NCBI GenBank assembly: GCA_025463925.1
Contig: JAODBK010000064.1
Coordinates: forward strand, 1-59,668
Source of the DNA: Acidimicrobiales bacterium
GTDB lineage: Bacteria > Actinomycetota > Acidimicrobiia > Acidimicrobiales > AC-14
Reading direction: 5' to 3'
DNA: 59,668 nt
Positions 28,827 through 59,668 of the stretch are shown here, in pieces. Position 1 is the stretch's first letter, and the number at the start of each line of letters is the position of its first letter. The notes below the pieces were generated by a model. That model was not told where the DNA came from. It saw nothing but the letters and a program-made list of their open reading frames with translations, and did no database searches. The position numbers were made by a program, and so were the translations under genes.

Positions 28827-30950
28827 TCAGCTCCGCGCAATCCGGCTGACGTAGCGATTGATGGCCGTCATCTCGCCGGCAGATAGATCGAGCGACAGCG
28901 TGAGCTCGCCCGGCGCGTCCGGTACGACCGCCTGCAGCGTCCCCACGCGCTCGCACCCGTCGGCGGGGATGTCGCCGCCCCATCGCCACCGCTGCTCGTC
29001 GCCGGGCCAGCCGAGCGCCGCCGTCACCTCGGCACCGCGGATGGGCGTCCGCAGGTCGCTGACGACGTGCACGTCGAGCGCGATCGGTTGACCAGGGCGG
29101 TAGGCCGCCGCCGGCCGGTCGGCGACGACGATCACCGGCCGGCAGGCTTCGGCGACCGCGTGGTACCCGGCTTTCGGGGCGCGCTCGTCGTCCAGCACGG
29201 ACCACGCGACCGCCGGGTACGCCTCGCCGAACGAGAACGCGCAGAAGCCGCCCGTCGGCCGGTACTTCAACCGGCGCAACGTCTCGATGTGGTGCTTCAG
29301 CACCGTGGCCTGGTACGCCTGAGTCGCGTCGCGCCACTCGTCGAACGTCGCGTGCTCCGCCGGCGGGACGTGGGTGTCGAACACCCACCGCTGGAGCGCG
29401 TGGCGTCGGGCCAGACGATCCCAATCGAGTTCGGGCCACCGCTCGGGTTCCATGAACGCGGCGTTGGCGGGGACGGCCTGCGCGCCGAACTCGCTCACGA
29501 AGCGCGCCATGCGCGGCCACGCCGCGAGGAAGCCGGGGAGGTCGCGCTCGTTGCCGTGGTACCAGCCGAAGTAGAGGTGGCTGTCCGTGCCGCCGGCGAA
29601 GGGTCCCGGCGGGATCCCGGAATGCGCGACGACCGGCCGGGTGGGGTCGCTCTTCGCCAGCGCGCTCTTGATCGACCGGTCGAGCACCGACTTGTTCCAG
29701 GTCGGGAGCTCCCAACCGGCGACCAGCCGCATCACGGTGCGCCGTCGCTTCTCGACCGGCTGCCCAGGCGTCACGTCGAGCGCGATCGGCTCGTTGTGGC
29801 CGCACCACAGCGCGATCGACGGGTGATGGCCGAGCAGGTCGACCGCCTCGCGCGCCTGGCGCGCCGCCTGCTTGCGCACCCCGGCGGCGTAGCCCCACTG
29901 CAGCGGCAAGTCCTGCCACAGCAGCAGCCCGCCGCGGTCGGCGGCGTCGTACAGGGCCGGCGGGCCGACGTGGGCATGGACGCGGAGGAGGTCGAGGCCG
30001 GCGTCGATGGCCAGCCCGACGTCGCGCTCGCAGTCGGCGACCGAGACGTCGGCCAGCGCCATCCGCTGCGGGCCCTGGTTGGCGCCCTTGACGAACAGCC
30101 GCTCGCCGTTGACGTGCAGCACCCAGTCGTCCATCCGGACCTGGCGGAGGCCGGTGCGGAACGCGCGCCGGTCCGACACGCCGGTGTCGGGCAGCACGAC
30201 CTCGACCGCGACGTCGGCCATCGCCTGGCCACCGAGCGAGCGCGGCCACCAGAGGTCGGGCCGGTCGACGGTGACGGACCATTCGACGCGGTTCTCGCCG
30301 GCCGCGAGTGGCTGGTCGGTGACGTGCTCGGTGCCGCCGATCGTCGTCCGGAAGGCGACCGCCCCGGCCTCGGTCGCGTCGACCTCGGCCCGGAACCTGA
30401 CGACGGCCCGCACGTCCGTCGCCTCGTGCACCAGCGTTCGGAGTCGGGCGATGCGCACCGGCCCGCTCGGCTCCAGCCGCACCGGCTGCCAGATGCCACC
30501 GGGGTTCCACTCCGGGTCGAGACAGTCCCAGTGCTGGAACACGCCGGTGAGGTTGCGCTTGGCGGTGAGGTCGGCCGGCCGGTTGCACGTCACCTCGACT
30601 GCCAGCACGTGCTCGCGGCGCGATCCGACCGCGTCGGTCACCTCGAACTGGTGCGGGAAGAAGTAGCCCTCGGTCGCGCCGACGTAGCCACCGTCGAGCC
30701 ACACGTCGCCTTGGTAGAAGAGCCCGTCGAGCACGAGCCACCACCGCGTGCCCTCGTCCGCGGGCGACGCGAACGAGCGGCGGCACAGCAGCGGGCCGTC
30801 GGAACCCGTGAACTCCTTCGTCGACTGCCAGTGACCGGGGACGTCGATGTCGACCCAGTCGCCGTCACTCGCGTCGACCTGCATGTCGGCGAAGGTGCGG
30901 CGCGCCGCCTCGTCGGCGAGGCGGGCCCGCCACGTCCCCGAGAGGTCCAC
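28827..30950 (-). CDS. Glycoside hydrolase family 2 protein (beta-mannosidase-like)
   Basis: A sugar-binding jelly roll (about 1-165, GHWQSTKEFTG, YQGDVWLDGGYVGATEGYFFPH) and an immunoglobulin-like domain precede the TIM barrel. The barrel shows the acid/base glutamate E387 in LWCGHNEP and a likely nucleophile E487 in FVSEFGAQ. GH2 enzymes cleave beta-linked sugars (galactosides, mannosides, glucuronides, glucosaminides); the substrate is not predictable. No signal peptide, so cytoplasmic. I use GTG 30950 (707 aa): a TACCCT element lies 7 nt before it, while the longer frame start at 31004 falls inside an inverted repeat. Confidence 0.85.
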   Translation of the reverse strand: MDLSGTWRARLADEAARRTFADMQVDASDGDWVDIDVPGHWQSTKEFTGSDGPLLCRRSFASPADEGTRWWLVLDGLFYQGDVWLDGGYVGATEGYFFPHQFEVTDAVGSRREHVLAVEVTCNRPADLTAKRNLTGVFQHWDCLDPEWNPGGIWQPVRLEPSGPVRIARLRTLVHEATDVRAVVRFRAEVDATEAGAVAFRTTIGGTEHVTDQPLAAGENRVEWSVTVDRPDLWWPRSLGGQAMADVAVEVVLPDTGVSDRRAFRTGLRQVRMDDWVLHVNGERLFVKGANQGPQRMALADVSVADCERDVGLAIDAGLDLLRVHAHVGPPALYDAADRGGLLLWQDLPLQWGYAAGVRKQAARQAREAVDLLGHHPSIALWCGHNEPIALDVTPGQPVEKRRRTVMRLVAGWELPTWNKSVLDRSIKSALAKSDPTRPVVAHSGIPPGPFAGGTDSHLYFGWYHGNERDLPGFLAAWPRMARFVSEFGAQAVPANAAFMEPERWPELDWDRLARRHALQRWVFDTHVPPAEHATFDEWRDATQAYQATVLKHHIETLRRLKYRPTGGFCAFSFGEAYPAVAWSVLDDERAPKAGYHAVAEACRPVIVVADRPAAAYRPGQPIALDVHVVSDLRTPIRGAEVTAALGWPGDEQRWRWGGDIPADGCERVGTLQAVVPDAPGELTLSLDLSAGEMTAINRYVSRIARS

Positions 30951-30957
30951 CGGCCGC

Positions 30958-30963
30958 AGGGTA
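30958..30963 (-). promoter_or_regulatory. -10 element TACCCT (minus strand) before the GH2 gene
   Basis: Read on the minus strand, TACCCT ends 7 nt before the GTG at 30950. This decides the start and separates the gene from the inverted repeat upstream. Confidence 0.45.
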
Positions 30964-30980
30964 GTGGCCGCCCCCACCCA

Positions 30981-31035
30981 ACCGTTCTTTGAACGTCGGA
31001 CCACCGCAGAGGTGGACGAGCGTTCAAAGAACGGT
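30981..31035. repeat. Compound inverted repeat, copy 1 (terminator-like)
   Basis: Perfect 15-bp arms ACCGTTCTTTGAACG (30981-30995) and its complement (31021-31035) enclose 25 nt. That interior itself holds a 5-bp hairpin CCACC/GGTGG (31001-31015) and TCG/CGA pairs. Each arm is also a small palindrome (GTTC-TTT-GAAC). The TGA stop of the minus-strand gene (31024-31026) lies inside the right arm. A second copy is at 59179-59233. Confidence 0.75.
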
Positions 31036-31794
31036 GAGGGGACCGTTGAGAGTGGCGTCGAGGACGAGGTGGTCGCCCTCCGGGGTGACGGTGACGCGGA
31101 ACGGCCCCGGCCCGAACGTCAGCATCGTCGCGGTCCTGGTGCCGTCGTTGCGCGTCACGGTGAAGGTGCCGGTGGTGGCGACCTTGCCGGGGCCGGCCAG
31201 CGCGACCGGCCCGGGCTCGAGGTGGACGGTCACCCCACGAGTGACGAGCGTCGTCTGCGCGTCGGCCGTGAAGTCGACGCCGTCGCGAGGCGTCGCCAGT
31301 CCGCCGCGTCCGACCGCGACCGCGGCACCGGCGTGGTAGCGGCCCGCCGAGAACGATCGCGCCGCGCCGTCGAGCGCCCACGTCGCGCCGGTGGGCGTGA
31401 GGTCGACGTGGGCCGGGCCGAGGTCGAGCGTCGCGCCGTCGCCGGCGGTGATCGGGAGGGGTGTCCCGCTGGTCCACACGATCGCGGTCCGGGCGCCGTT
31501 GACGATCGCGTTCTCGATGGTGGCCGAGCCCTGCCCGCGCTCGGCGTTCAGCGTGAGCGGCAACGGCAGCGGATCGGTGACGGCGCCGTCGGCGCTGAGG
31601 GTCCGGGCCTCGCCGCTGACCTCGGCCTGCCCGAGCGGTGGCACGACCGCCGGGTGGCCGGCCGGCGGCAGGGTCGTCACCGTCACGACCCGGACCCGCA
31701 CCTTGACGGGTCGCGACCGCACGCCGAAGACGGCGAGGTCGCAGGCCAGGATGATGCCGGCCGCCCAGATCAACCGAGCGGGGCGCCGTTGCAC
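31024..31794 (-). CDS. Hypothetical protein with N-terminal membrane anchor, 256 aa
   Basis: Not recognised by family. A short basic start (RRPARLIWAAG) leads into one hydrophobic segment (about 6-24), followed by an all-beta extracytoplasmic domain. That domain is rich in Thr, Gly, Val and Ala, with repeated short strands such as GARTAIVWTSG, ATWALDGAARSF and GTFTVTRNDGTRTATML. This layout suggests an anchored beta-sandwich or beta-helix envelope protein, loosely LptC/OstA-like. GTG 31794 is preferred because TACCGT ends 7 nt before it; GTG 31803 is the alternative. The stop lies in the inverted repeat. Divergent from the AAA ATPase gene. Confidence 0.55.
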   Translation of the reverse strand: MQRRPARLIWAAGIILACDLAVFGVRSRPVKVRVRVVTVTTLPPAGHPAVVPPLGQAEVSGEARTLSADGAVTDPLPLPLTLNAERGQGSATIENAIVNGARTAIVWTSGTPLPITAGDGATLDLGPAHVDLTPTGATWALDGAARSFSAGRYHAGAAVAVGRGGLATPRDGVDFTADAQTTLVTRGVTVHLEPGPVALAGPGKVATTGTFTVTRNDGTRTATMLTFGPGPFRVTVTPEGDHLVLDATLNGPLTVL

Positions 31795-31801
31795 GGAGGG
31801 C

Positions 31802-31811
31802 ACGGTAGTTT
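31802..31811. promoter_or_regulatory. Overlapping divergent -10 elements
   Basis: Minus-strand TACCGT (31807-31802) serves the gene starting at 31794 and plus-strand TAGTTT (31806-31811) serves the ATPase ATG at 31819. Both are 7 nt from their start codons and they share 2 bp, so the two promoters cannot be occupied by polymerase together. Confidence 0.45.
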
Positions 31812-58174: not shown

Positions 58175-59168
58175 GGACCTCGCCATCGACCTGGGCACGG
58201 CCAACACCTTGGTGTACGCCCGAGCTCGGGGAATCGTCCTCAACGAGCCCACGGTCATCGCCCTAAACAGTCAGACGCACGACGTCCTGGCCATGGGCCA
58301 GGAGGCGTGGCACATGATCGGCCGGACGCCCGGCTACATCGTCGCCGTCCGTCCGTTGCGCCAGGGCGCGATCACCGACTTCGAGATCACGCAACGCATG
58401 ATCCGCCTGCTGCTCCAGCGCGCCGGGCTCTCGAGATTCCACCGGCCGCGCGTGCTGATCTGCGTGCCGTCGGCGATCACCGAGGTCGAACGGCGCGCCG
58501 TGAAGGAAGCGGCGCGCCAGGCCGGCGCAGCCGAGGCGCAGCTCATCGAGCAGCCGATGGCCGCCGCGATCGGCGCCGGTCTCCCGATCCACGAGCCGCT
58601 CGGCAACATGGTCGTGGACGTCGGCGGCGGCACCACCGAGGTCGCGGTCATCTCGCTCGGCGGCATCGTCGCGCTGCAGGCGATCCGCGTCGGCAGCTTC
58701 GACATCGACGCGTCGATCCAGACCTACGTGCGGCGCGAGTACGGCATCGCCATCGGCGAGCGCACCGCCGAGGAGATCAAGCTCGCCATCGGCTCGGCCT
58801 ACCCGACCGAGGACGAGGTGAAGGCCGAGGTGCGTGGCCGCGACCTGATGAGTGGCCTGCCGAAGACGGTCATCCTGTCGCCCGAGGAGGTGCGGGGCGC
58901 GATCGAGGAGCAGGTGCGGGCGATCGTCGACGCCGTCGTGCAGTGCCTCGGCCAGGCGCCGCCGGAACTGGCTCAGGACCTCATCATGCAGGGCATCAAC
59001 CTGGTCGGCGGCGGCGGCATGCTGCGCGGCCTCGAGCGCCGCATCTCCGAGGAGACGCAGCTGCCGGTCCACCTGGTCGACGCCCCGCTCGAGTGCGTCG
59101 TGCTCGGCGCCGGCAAGTGCCTCGAGGCCTTCGAGTCCCTCCGGGTCCTGTTCATGCAAGGCGGCTGA
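58167..59168 (+). CDS. mreB: Rod-shape-determining protein MreB-like, probable CTG start
   Basis: Actin-like ATPase: phosphate-1 loop ARDLAIDLGTANTLVY, PRVLICVPSAITEVERRAVKEAA, phosphate-2 VVDVGGGTTEVAVISLGG, and adenosine motif LVGGGGMLRGLE. Phosphate-1 begins right after codon 58167. In this frame no ATG, GTG or TTG occurs for many codons upstream, and the first one (TTG 58209) would cut off the phosphate-1 loop. CTG 58167, with GGGAAGG 8 nt before it and an 8-nt overlap with the upstream stop, gives 333 aa, the normal MreB length. No mreC or mreD follows. Confidence 0.85.
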   Translation: MARDLAIDLGTANTLVYARARGIVLNEPTVIALNSQTHDVLAMGQEAWHMIGRTPGYIVAVRPLRQGAITDFEITQRMIRLLLQRAGLSRFHRPRVLICVPSAITEVERRAVKEAARQAGAAEAQLIEQPMAAAIGAGLPIHEPLGNMVVDVGGGTTEVAVISLGGIVALQAIRVGSFDIDASIQTYVRREYGIAIGERTAEEIKLAIGSAYPTEDEVKAEVRGRDLMSGLPKTVILSPEEVRGAIEEQVRAIVDAVVQCLGQAPPELAQDLIMQGINLVGGGGMLRGLERRISEETQLPVHLVDAPLECVVLGAGKCLEAFESLRVLFMQGG

Positions 59169-59178
59169 CCTCCCGGCG

Positions 59179-59233
59179 ACCGTTCTTTGAACGTTGGCCC
59201 ACATCCCCAGGCGAGCGCCGGTTCAACGATCGG
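59179..59233. repeat. Compound inverted repeat, copy 2
   Basis: The left arm ACCGTTCTTTGAACG (59179-59193) is identical to that at 30981. The right arm GTTCAACGATCGG (59221-59233) differs from the perfect complement at 2 of 13 positions. The 25-27-nt interior is different from copy 1. It lies between convergent mreB and the HEAT-repeat gene, whose TGA stop (59223-59225) is inside the right arm. Confidence 0.7.
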
Positions 59234-59668
59234 GGCGGGACAGCTCCTCGGCGGCCTCGCGGACCTGCCAGTCGCGATCGGTGAGGGCGCGGGCCAGGGC
59301 GGCGTCGACGTCGGGTCCTTCGAACGGGGTGAGGGCGATCACGGCGCGGCGGCGGATCGCCGGCTTGTCGGTCGTCGCGGCCAGGATCGCGGCGAGCCCG
59401 GCGGGATCGCCGATCGCGCCGAGCGCCGCCACCGCGGCTTCGCGGCACAGCGGGTCGGCGTGGTCGCCGGCGACGTCGGTCAGCGCCCGCACCGCGCCCG
59501 GCCCGGCGTCCGCGCCGAGCTCACCGAGCGCCCACGCCGCGGCCTCGACGACGGTCGCGTCGCGATCGGCGAGCCGCTCGACCAGCGGGCCCGGCCCGGC
59601 GCCGGTCGCCAAGACCGCGATCACCGCGCGGCGCCGCACCCGCGGGTCGGTGTCGGCCAGCGCGGTCG
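59223..59668 (-). CDS. HEAT-repeat protein (5' end outside window)
   Basis: At least 147 codons open to the window edge. Repeats of about 30 residues (RRRAVIAVLATGAGPGPLVERL, EAAAWALGELGADAGPGAVRAL, CREAAVAALGAIGDPAGLAAIL, RRRAVIALTPFEGPDVDAALARAL) follow the HEAT/PBS-lyase pattern of paired helices with Asp-X-X-Val/Leu-Arg. The family forms protein-protein or phycocyanobilin-lyase-type scaffolds. The GTG at 59639 is not a real start, since TALADTDPRV before it is typical repeat sequence. The stop lies in the repeat at 59179-59233. Confidence 0.8.
   Translation of the reverse strand, partial: TALADTDPRVRRRAVIAVLATGAGPGPLVERLADRDATVVEAAAWALGELGADAGPGAVRALTDVAGDHADPLCREAAVAALGAIGDPAGLAAILAATTDKPAIRRRAVIALTPFEGPDVDAALARALTDRDWQVREAAEELSRPDR

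Follow-up and report, generated by a model that had tools for sequence, protein, structure and literature searches.

A dispersed REP-like palindrome family paired with a Vsr-type nuclease gene in an acidimicrobial genome: a candidate small mobile element

Results

Palindromic elements in the window

The stretch of DNA analysed here (the window, 59,668 nucleotides) is contig 41 of a draft genome in 119 contigs (G000; 4.08 Mb, 96.7% complete), and it holds two copies of a palindromic element, whose placement among the neighbouring genes is given in Table 1. The element has the layout CGTTCTTTG-33 nt-CAAAGAACG and forms a single palindrome of about 51 bp. Pairing at the first site reaches out to 30981-31035, and the perfect 15-bp inverted repeat that the initial annotation had described there, enclosing a smaller hairpin, is real, the inner hairpin being the CCACC/GGTGG centre; at the second site the centre and the right arm are decayed. 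The 15-mer ACCGTTCTTTGAACG lies at 30981-30995 (+), 31021-31035 (-) and 59179-59193 (+), the last being the recurrence that had been reported at 59179 with a decayed right arm, and when up to three mismatches are allowed it gives six matches in the window against 0.75 expected, a number reached by none of 100 shuffles. A covariance model of the family scores 73.6 and 69.7 bits on the two strands of the first element, and 55.5 bits at the second, where the match spans 59177-59238.

Table 1. Coordinates of the elements and adjoining genes in the window
Feature	Position	Strand	Remarks
Glycosyl-hydrolase-2-like ORF	28827-31004	-	PF22666
51-bp palindromic element	30983-31033		CGTTCTTTG ... CAAAGAACG; covariance-model matches on both strands
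259-aa ORF	31024-31803	-	TGA stop (31024-31026) within right arm
Stop codon of plus-strand gene	59166-59168	+	11 bp before second element
Second palindrome copy	59181-59232		Right arm decayed, one base longer
ORF open at contig end	59223-59666	-	TGA stop (59223-59225) within decayed right arm

The two TGA codons that had been assigned to the right arms do lie within them and do end minus-strand ORFs. A stop codon falls in the arm because TGA is contained in CTTTGAAC; of the 13 elements of this genome that were placed relative to genes (two of the 15 were missed by the placement script), 7 are entered for about 10 nt by the end of an adjoining gene, which accounts for the stop codons in the arms. 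The further description of the arms as themselves palindromic (GTTC-TTT-GAAC) holds for the family of this genome but not for most relatives, whose elements have other inner arms, for example CGTTCTTTGTCGG. A Pfam search with the 259-aa ORF returned no match. The first possible start codon of the glycosyl-hydrolase-2-like ORF is inside the element, and its true start is probably further in. Since a plus-strand gene ends just before the second element, this copy lies between convergent genes.

A dispersed family in this genome and others

The exact 13-mer occurs nine times genome-wide, and a longer consensus with up to three mismatches gives 22 genome-wide matches, with no match to the control in either case (a reversed sequence for the 13-mer). 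The genome holds at least 15 distinct full-length elements, from which the covariance model was built by alignment; as the model was scored on 150 of 6263 first-look candidates, this count is a lower bound. Each of the 15 is recovered by the model on both strands. The suspicion that the repeat belongs to a dispersed family of more than a handful of copies was therefore well founded. The next covariance-model match (E below 0.001) is a related 35-bp palindrome on contig C100, which adjoins a nuclease homolog.

Covariance-model matches at E<=0.001 were found in 16 of 60 genomes, mostly of the order and with the present genome included, several of the 16 having only weak or partial matches. Fourteen other genomes, picked because they hold the CGTTCTTTG family, have 1 to 24 exact copies each, with none for the control in any of them; two of these, G069 and G072, have the same contig coordinates as two members of the relatives set, G006 and G054. 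Thirteen of the 14 carry homologs of the nuclease described below, and the remaining one (G070) has an element and no nuclease match found. A wider contig scan returned, among the matches listed, some that are chance or coding (e.g. in Bacteroidota, with a symmetry of about 0.4-0.6). In several Bacteroidota (L238, L243, L244, L246) the pattern matches a homologous, non-palindromic stretch of about 68-71% identity, presumably coding sequence matched by chance, and palindromes of Chryseolinea serpens (L254), a Pyrinomonadaceae MAG (L235) and L184 have a similar outer sequence with another inner design (CTTTGCG repeats), and are possibly unrelated repeat families.

Position relative to genes

We placed 85 elements of seven genomes, of which 34 are flanked by convergent, 32 by co-directional and five by divergent genes, with six inside a called gene and eight at a contig edge, as judged by gene calls from our own, unvalidated codon scorer, which also supplied the control genes. 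Background gaps (n=456) comprise 81 convergent, 305 co-directional and 70 divergent ones, such that convergent gaps hold 34 of 71 elements as compared to 81 of 456 in the background (binomial p 6e-9, a value in which some sites count twice, as G060 and G063 share sites, and in which two of the 85 elements flank the nuclease gene of contig C92), and divergent gaps hold 5 of 71 as compared to 70 of 456. The relation to 3' gene ends that had been surmised from two copies is supported by this enrichment.

Such a distribution, along with the self-complementarity of the elements on both strands, is what would be expected if the palindromes were transcription terminators or stabilizers of mRNA ends, selected as RNA hairpins. 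We nevertheless hold this to be very improbable, and the label of terminator-like, which had been offered for the element, is not supported. There is no T tract after the elements, T making up about 11% of the first eight bases after 57 elements of other genomes, and in the window there is no match to a known Rfam RNA above the gathering score. An intrinsic terminator, i.e. a G+C hairpin followed by a T run, was rejected on the same 57 elements, the right flanks of which are G-rich. In four of six sets of copies, an arm pairs with its partner in the same copy no better than with the arm of another copy, and one-sided changes outnumber compensated ones; across the first 15 copies, compensatory pairing is modest. 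In the other two sets (G061 and the family of the second nuclease gene, C62) within-copy pairing is better, and as these are the only two in which pairing beyond the family consensus is significant, the result argues against a general selection of every single copy as an RNA hairpin. Furthermore, selection of this kind leaves the link to a nuclease gene and the genome-specific sequences of the palindromes unexplained.

In the same 57 elements, the approximately 10 bases to the left are C-rich and the approximately 10 to the right are G-rich, which is a bias of composition without copy-specific complementarity, and may reflect a target preference or belong to the element itself. Insertion into a pre-existing terminator stem was accordingly rejected, the complementarity of the flanks being 0.39 as observed and 0.38 when shuffled (positions 1-12).

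A nuclease gene paired with the palindromes

On contig C92, two elements of the family lie 1 kb apart and enclose a single ORF of 307 aa, the protein of which has an AbiEi-like N-terminal region followed by a DUF559/MTES_1575 (Vsr-fold) nuclease domain. The same arrangement of palindrome, gene and palindrome, with a protein of 38% identity, recurs in a genome from a different family within the order. By sequence, the nuclease domain matches PF18741/PF04480, and the N-terminal half matches AbiEi models of PADLOC (6.6e-24 for the C92 protein, 2e-33 for that of C62). A profile of the nuclease matches, in the PDB, the 'mobile intron protein' 3r3p (E 3.9e-5), which we take to be I-Bth0305I, and also 3hrl, an endonuclease-like protein. 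Of the predicted active-site residues, D236 and E247 do not vary among 16 homologs, and D249 is conserved at 90% or more. The MTES_1575 domain has been described as having a Vsr-type restriction-endonuclease fold (PMC3710099), and we found no role assigned to AbiEi-type DUF559/MTES_1575 nucleases.

The present genome has seven such AbiEi+DUF559 genes, at six of which there is at least one strong palindrome; the gene at L089 has no strong palindrome at either end. Homologs occur in 31 of 41 genomes of the order (E<=1e-5) and in 44 of 198 genomes of the phylum (E<=1e-15), the present genome being included in both, and the gene is often found in several copies per actinobacterial genome. We assembled 95 nuclease loci, seven from this genome and 88 from relatives (36 from the homolog search and 59 from longer matches, with most short or broken matches left out). 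Over these loci the density of hairpins is 3.32/kb at 0-150 bp upstream and 2.2/kb at 0-150 bp downstream of the gene, as compared to 0.11/kb inside the gene and 0-0.28/kb in bins further out. A strong palindrome is present upstream of 47 of the 95 genes, downstream of 36, on both sides of 26, and on at least one side of 57; there is none at either end of 38. At 183 control genes the counts are 12 upstream, 26 downstream and one on both sides, the windows at the gene ends being -200 to 0 and -15 to 120 for the nuclease genes and 150 bp for the controls, and the downstream count of the controls being raised as these loci were mostly chosen for holding an element. In a phylum-wide sample of 30 nuclease loci (a partial Azospira match being left out), at least one palindrome is found at 12 and none at 18, and there are 1.8-2.3 palindromes per kb at gene ends and 0.09-0.15 elsewhere.

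The palindromes detected at the nuclease loci have a median length of 48 bp. Those of the same gene (26 loci) share a median of 53% of their 7-mers (range 8-100%), while palindromes of different loci share a mean of 0.8%, and of the 31 loci with a palindrome on one side only, 12 have a second copy that outscores 200 shuffles. Similarity of palindromes follows similarity of proteins (Mantel r=0.176, p=0.0002, n=57), a signal that comes for the most part from protein pairs with more than 60% identity.

Given that the N-terminal half of the protein matches AbiEi antitoxins, it could be postulated that the protein is an AbiEi-like autorepressor, with the palindromes as its operators and the solo copies as its regulon. 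Upstream palindromes, where present, mostly have their centre 43-112 bp ahead of the projected start of the gene, and the promoters of AbiEi antitoxins carry inverted repeats to which these proteins bind (PMC7319586). We give this reading only a slight chance, however. The matching palindrome is often downstream of the nuclease gene as well, solo copies are enriched between convergent genes and rare between divergent ones, copies come and go between species, and the predicted active-site residues are conserved.

Several observations touch on the range of the nuclease. A MAG filed as Planctomycetaceae CH-Jul18-113 (L431) has a nuclease gene between near-identical palindromes, and the arrangement may therefore cross phyla. 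Nuclease homologs at G006:C30, G030:C139 and G004:C69 each appear as a pair of partial matches next to one another, a pattern that genes which are broken and decaying would be expected to give. A search of viral contigs led nowhere, and one of phages returned two partial matches only; among plasmids there were nine records, one of which, from Tsukamurella, covers most of the query and has no palindrome at the locus.

Palindrome families of two nuclease genes

The second nuclease gene, C62, has a palindrome that differs in sequence from the C92 family. If every nuclease has its own family of palindromes, dispersal is expected of the C62 palindrome too, and this prediction was borne out: it occurs at 15 places in the genome, two at the gene and 13 elsewhere, with none for the control. 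Ten of the 15 could be given a locus, and of these six are convergent, two divergent, one co-directional and one inside a gene, one convergent and one divergent place being the copies that flank the C62 gene itself. Two nuclease genes of this genome thus each have a dispersed family of their own. Among 13 other genomes, six have dispersed copies that match a palindrome at one of their own nuclease genes, with a k-mer margin that is small in some of the six and a tie with the locus of another genome in G060; in the other seven, no cognate gene was recognized for the solo family among the nuclease loci fetched, which are a subset.

It has been suggested of REPs that they are moved by RAYTs (PMC3733652), and the palindrome-moving chemistry of the nuclease is putative. 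On these grounds an unrelated transposase, of RAYT or IS type, might move the palindromes, with the nuclease gene as a passenger. This is again very unlikely in our estimation: the transposase family that was searched for, the RAYT type (PF01797, Y1_Tnp), is absent from the 96.7% complete draft, on which basis the RAYT/REP reading was rejected, with the Y1_Tnp control being positive in 5 of 14 genomes, and two nuclease copies of this one genome go with two different dispersed families.

Nuclease copies on contigs C107, C100 and C66 of this genome (L092, L090, L091) have yet other palindromes, that of the C107 gene being a GGAGTGTTTGTCGGC...GCCGACAAACACTCC palindrome on both sides. A palindrome at L209:5515-5561 resembles that of another nuclease gene in its genome (L321), and the stretches on either side of it match those around the L101 nuclease unit; it is possible that it represents a further family with solo copies.

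Presence, absence and turnover between relatives

Eight of the 15 sites of the MAG G060 were compared with four related genomes, some stretches of G063 being masked. At the site with the cleanest empty counterpart (L241), 102 bp of G060 are exactly missing from the close relative G063 (L341); G071 and G074 are also short here, and G073 is without the palindrome. The difference of 102 bp is twice the 51-bp core, which suggests that more than the palindrome alone may move. Empty counterparts were found for L205 and L197 in G073, for L231 in G071, for L250 in G074 and for L228 in G071 and G074, and occupied ones for L250 in G063 and for L206, L205 and L197 in G071. No clear target-site duplication was seen. 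With 15 copies, enrichment between convergent genes, and presence or absence according to species, the notion of a mobile or REP-like family has held up.

Whole nuclease units likewise have gene-less counterparts, in which both flanks are matched 57 to 438 bp apart (unit/counterpart: L181/L199, L157/L259, L131 and L148/L067, L123/L192, L301 and L323/L293). One of these counterparts, L192 in G063, is a solo palindrome of another family at the intergenic site of the L123 nuclease unit. Such a site would fit a process in which only the whole unit moves, and in which the nuclease gene is lost through recombination between the palindromes at its two ends, with a solo palindrome staying behind as a scar, much as solo LTRs originate. 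The orientation of the flanking pairs bears on this in both directions; among the 26 loci, 13 pairs, and the C92 pair with them, are direct, as such recombination would have it, eight are undecided, and five of the 18 oriented pairs are inverted, which counts against it. Furthermore, 13 solo copies per gene, twice in this genome, would need many past insertions and losses, and an ORF matching the nuclease profile was found in only 1 of 113 element-pattern loci, about 5 kb from the element. We regard the origin of the solo palindromes as scars as unlikely, albeit as the least unlikely of the alternatives considered here.

The sequences of the palindromes at shared sites are themselves informative. 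Between G060 and G071, the inner identity at four shared sites is 0.44, as compared to 0.45 between different sites, and within one genome the inner identity between sites is 0.74-0.75; between G060 and the closer G063, the same-site inner identity is 0.93 (five sites). As such, copies are inherited over the short term and are genome-specific over the longer term. This genome-specific turnover would seem to come from conversion, or from insertions that recurred at one and the same site.

Discussion

Proposed mechanism

From these comparisons we consider it probable that the element in the window is a solo, non-autonomous REP-like palindrome that is spread by its cognate AbiEi-Vsr nuclease. The autonomous form would be the unit of palindrome, AbiEi/DUF559 nuclease gene and palindrome, about 1.1 kb in length, on contig C92. 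A dimer of the nuclease is proposed to use its AbiEi-like N-terminal region to bind the cognate palindrome of about 50 bp, whereupon the Vsr-type domain would cut the DNA at the bound palindrome, and repair from another copy would spread and homogenize the palindromes, and the nuclease gene with them when it is included. Different nuclease copies would in this manner give rise to different palindrome families, and insertions would survive for the most part where convergent genes meet and immediately past stop codons. We postulate dimeric binding, cutting and copying because the layout is REPtron-like and because the target of the 3r3p protein, at nearly 60 bp, is close in length to the palindromes of about 50 bp; we infer that the spread itself may proceed by repair or by transposition.

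A broader statement, towards which we lean only slightly, is that AbiEi-Vsr (DUF559) nucleases, through cutting and copy-repair, generate and sustain families of dispersed palindromes of about 50 bp that are specific to each of them, that they would thereby constitute a new class of prokaryotic mobile element, and that the palindrome sequence of a genome would turn over with the specificity of the enzyme, at shared sites included. The system of palindrome and nuclease would apparently be an undescribed kind of small mobile element in actinobacteria. In the literature searched, with preprints and most subscription papers outside its scope, there was no account of DUF559 genes with palindromes, and, to our knowledge, no palindrome-mobilizing system with homologous parts has been known. 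If the proposal is correct, it would provide a selfish function for a large group of genes that are now annotated as DUF559 or that match antitoxin models. Natural pairs of an enzyme and a sequence of about 50 bp that diverge together would also be useful for studying the evolution of DNA specificity.

Comparison with known systems

Miniature inverted-repeat elements (MITEs) consist of two terminal repeats around a body. The elements described here resemble them in being small, non-coding and dispersed, and presumably in being moved in trans, and differ from them in consisting of one palindrome and in showing no clear target-site duplication. With type IV toxin-antitoxin systems of the AbiE kind there is a likeness in the N-terminal half of the protein, which matches AbiEi models, but here this part is fused to a nuclease domain, and the palindromes occur on both sides of the gene and are dispersed; the neighbours of the C92 gene, viewed by eye for this copy only, included no recognizable toxin gene.

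By sequence, the nuclease domain and its predicted active-site residues are shared with the Vsr/EDxHD homing endonucleases, of which I-Bth0305I dimerizes on a target of nearly 60 bp according to a review (PMC3943268). This long, dimer-bound target is comparable to the palindrome of about 50 bp that is the putative target here. However, the gene of a homing endonuclease interrupts its own site, such that the carrier is immune, whereas here full palindromes, as putative targets, are found on both sides of the gene (26 of 95 loci), and many solo palindromes are dispersed through the genome; neither an intron nor an intein was noticed in passing.

The organization is best matched by that of REPs and REPtrons (GTAG REPs with RAYT transposases; TIRtrons). 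REPtrons combine dispersed extragenic palindromes, an enzyme gene that is flanked by the same palindromes, and enzyme copies that are specific to their repeats (PMC3733652). The present family is alike in having dispersed copies that lie mostly downstream of genes or between convergent genes, and in that copies of its palindrome also bound the gene of the enzyme. It differs in the length of the palindromes (51-53 bp, as compared to 20-40 bp for REPs), and in its ends, as the consensus is paired to the ends of its 51-bp core and has no GTAG or CGTC in its flanks, whereas REPs bear GTAG or CGTC as an unpaired tag on one of their ends. Above all the enzyme differs, being an AbiEi and Vsr-fold nuclease here and an HUH tyrosine transposase there. 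If each nuclease does indeed drive its own family, a REP-like system would have been assembled from unrelated parts, and enzyme-driven amplification of palindromes would have arisen more than once.
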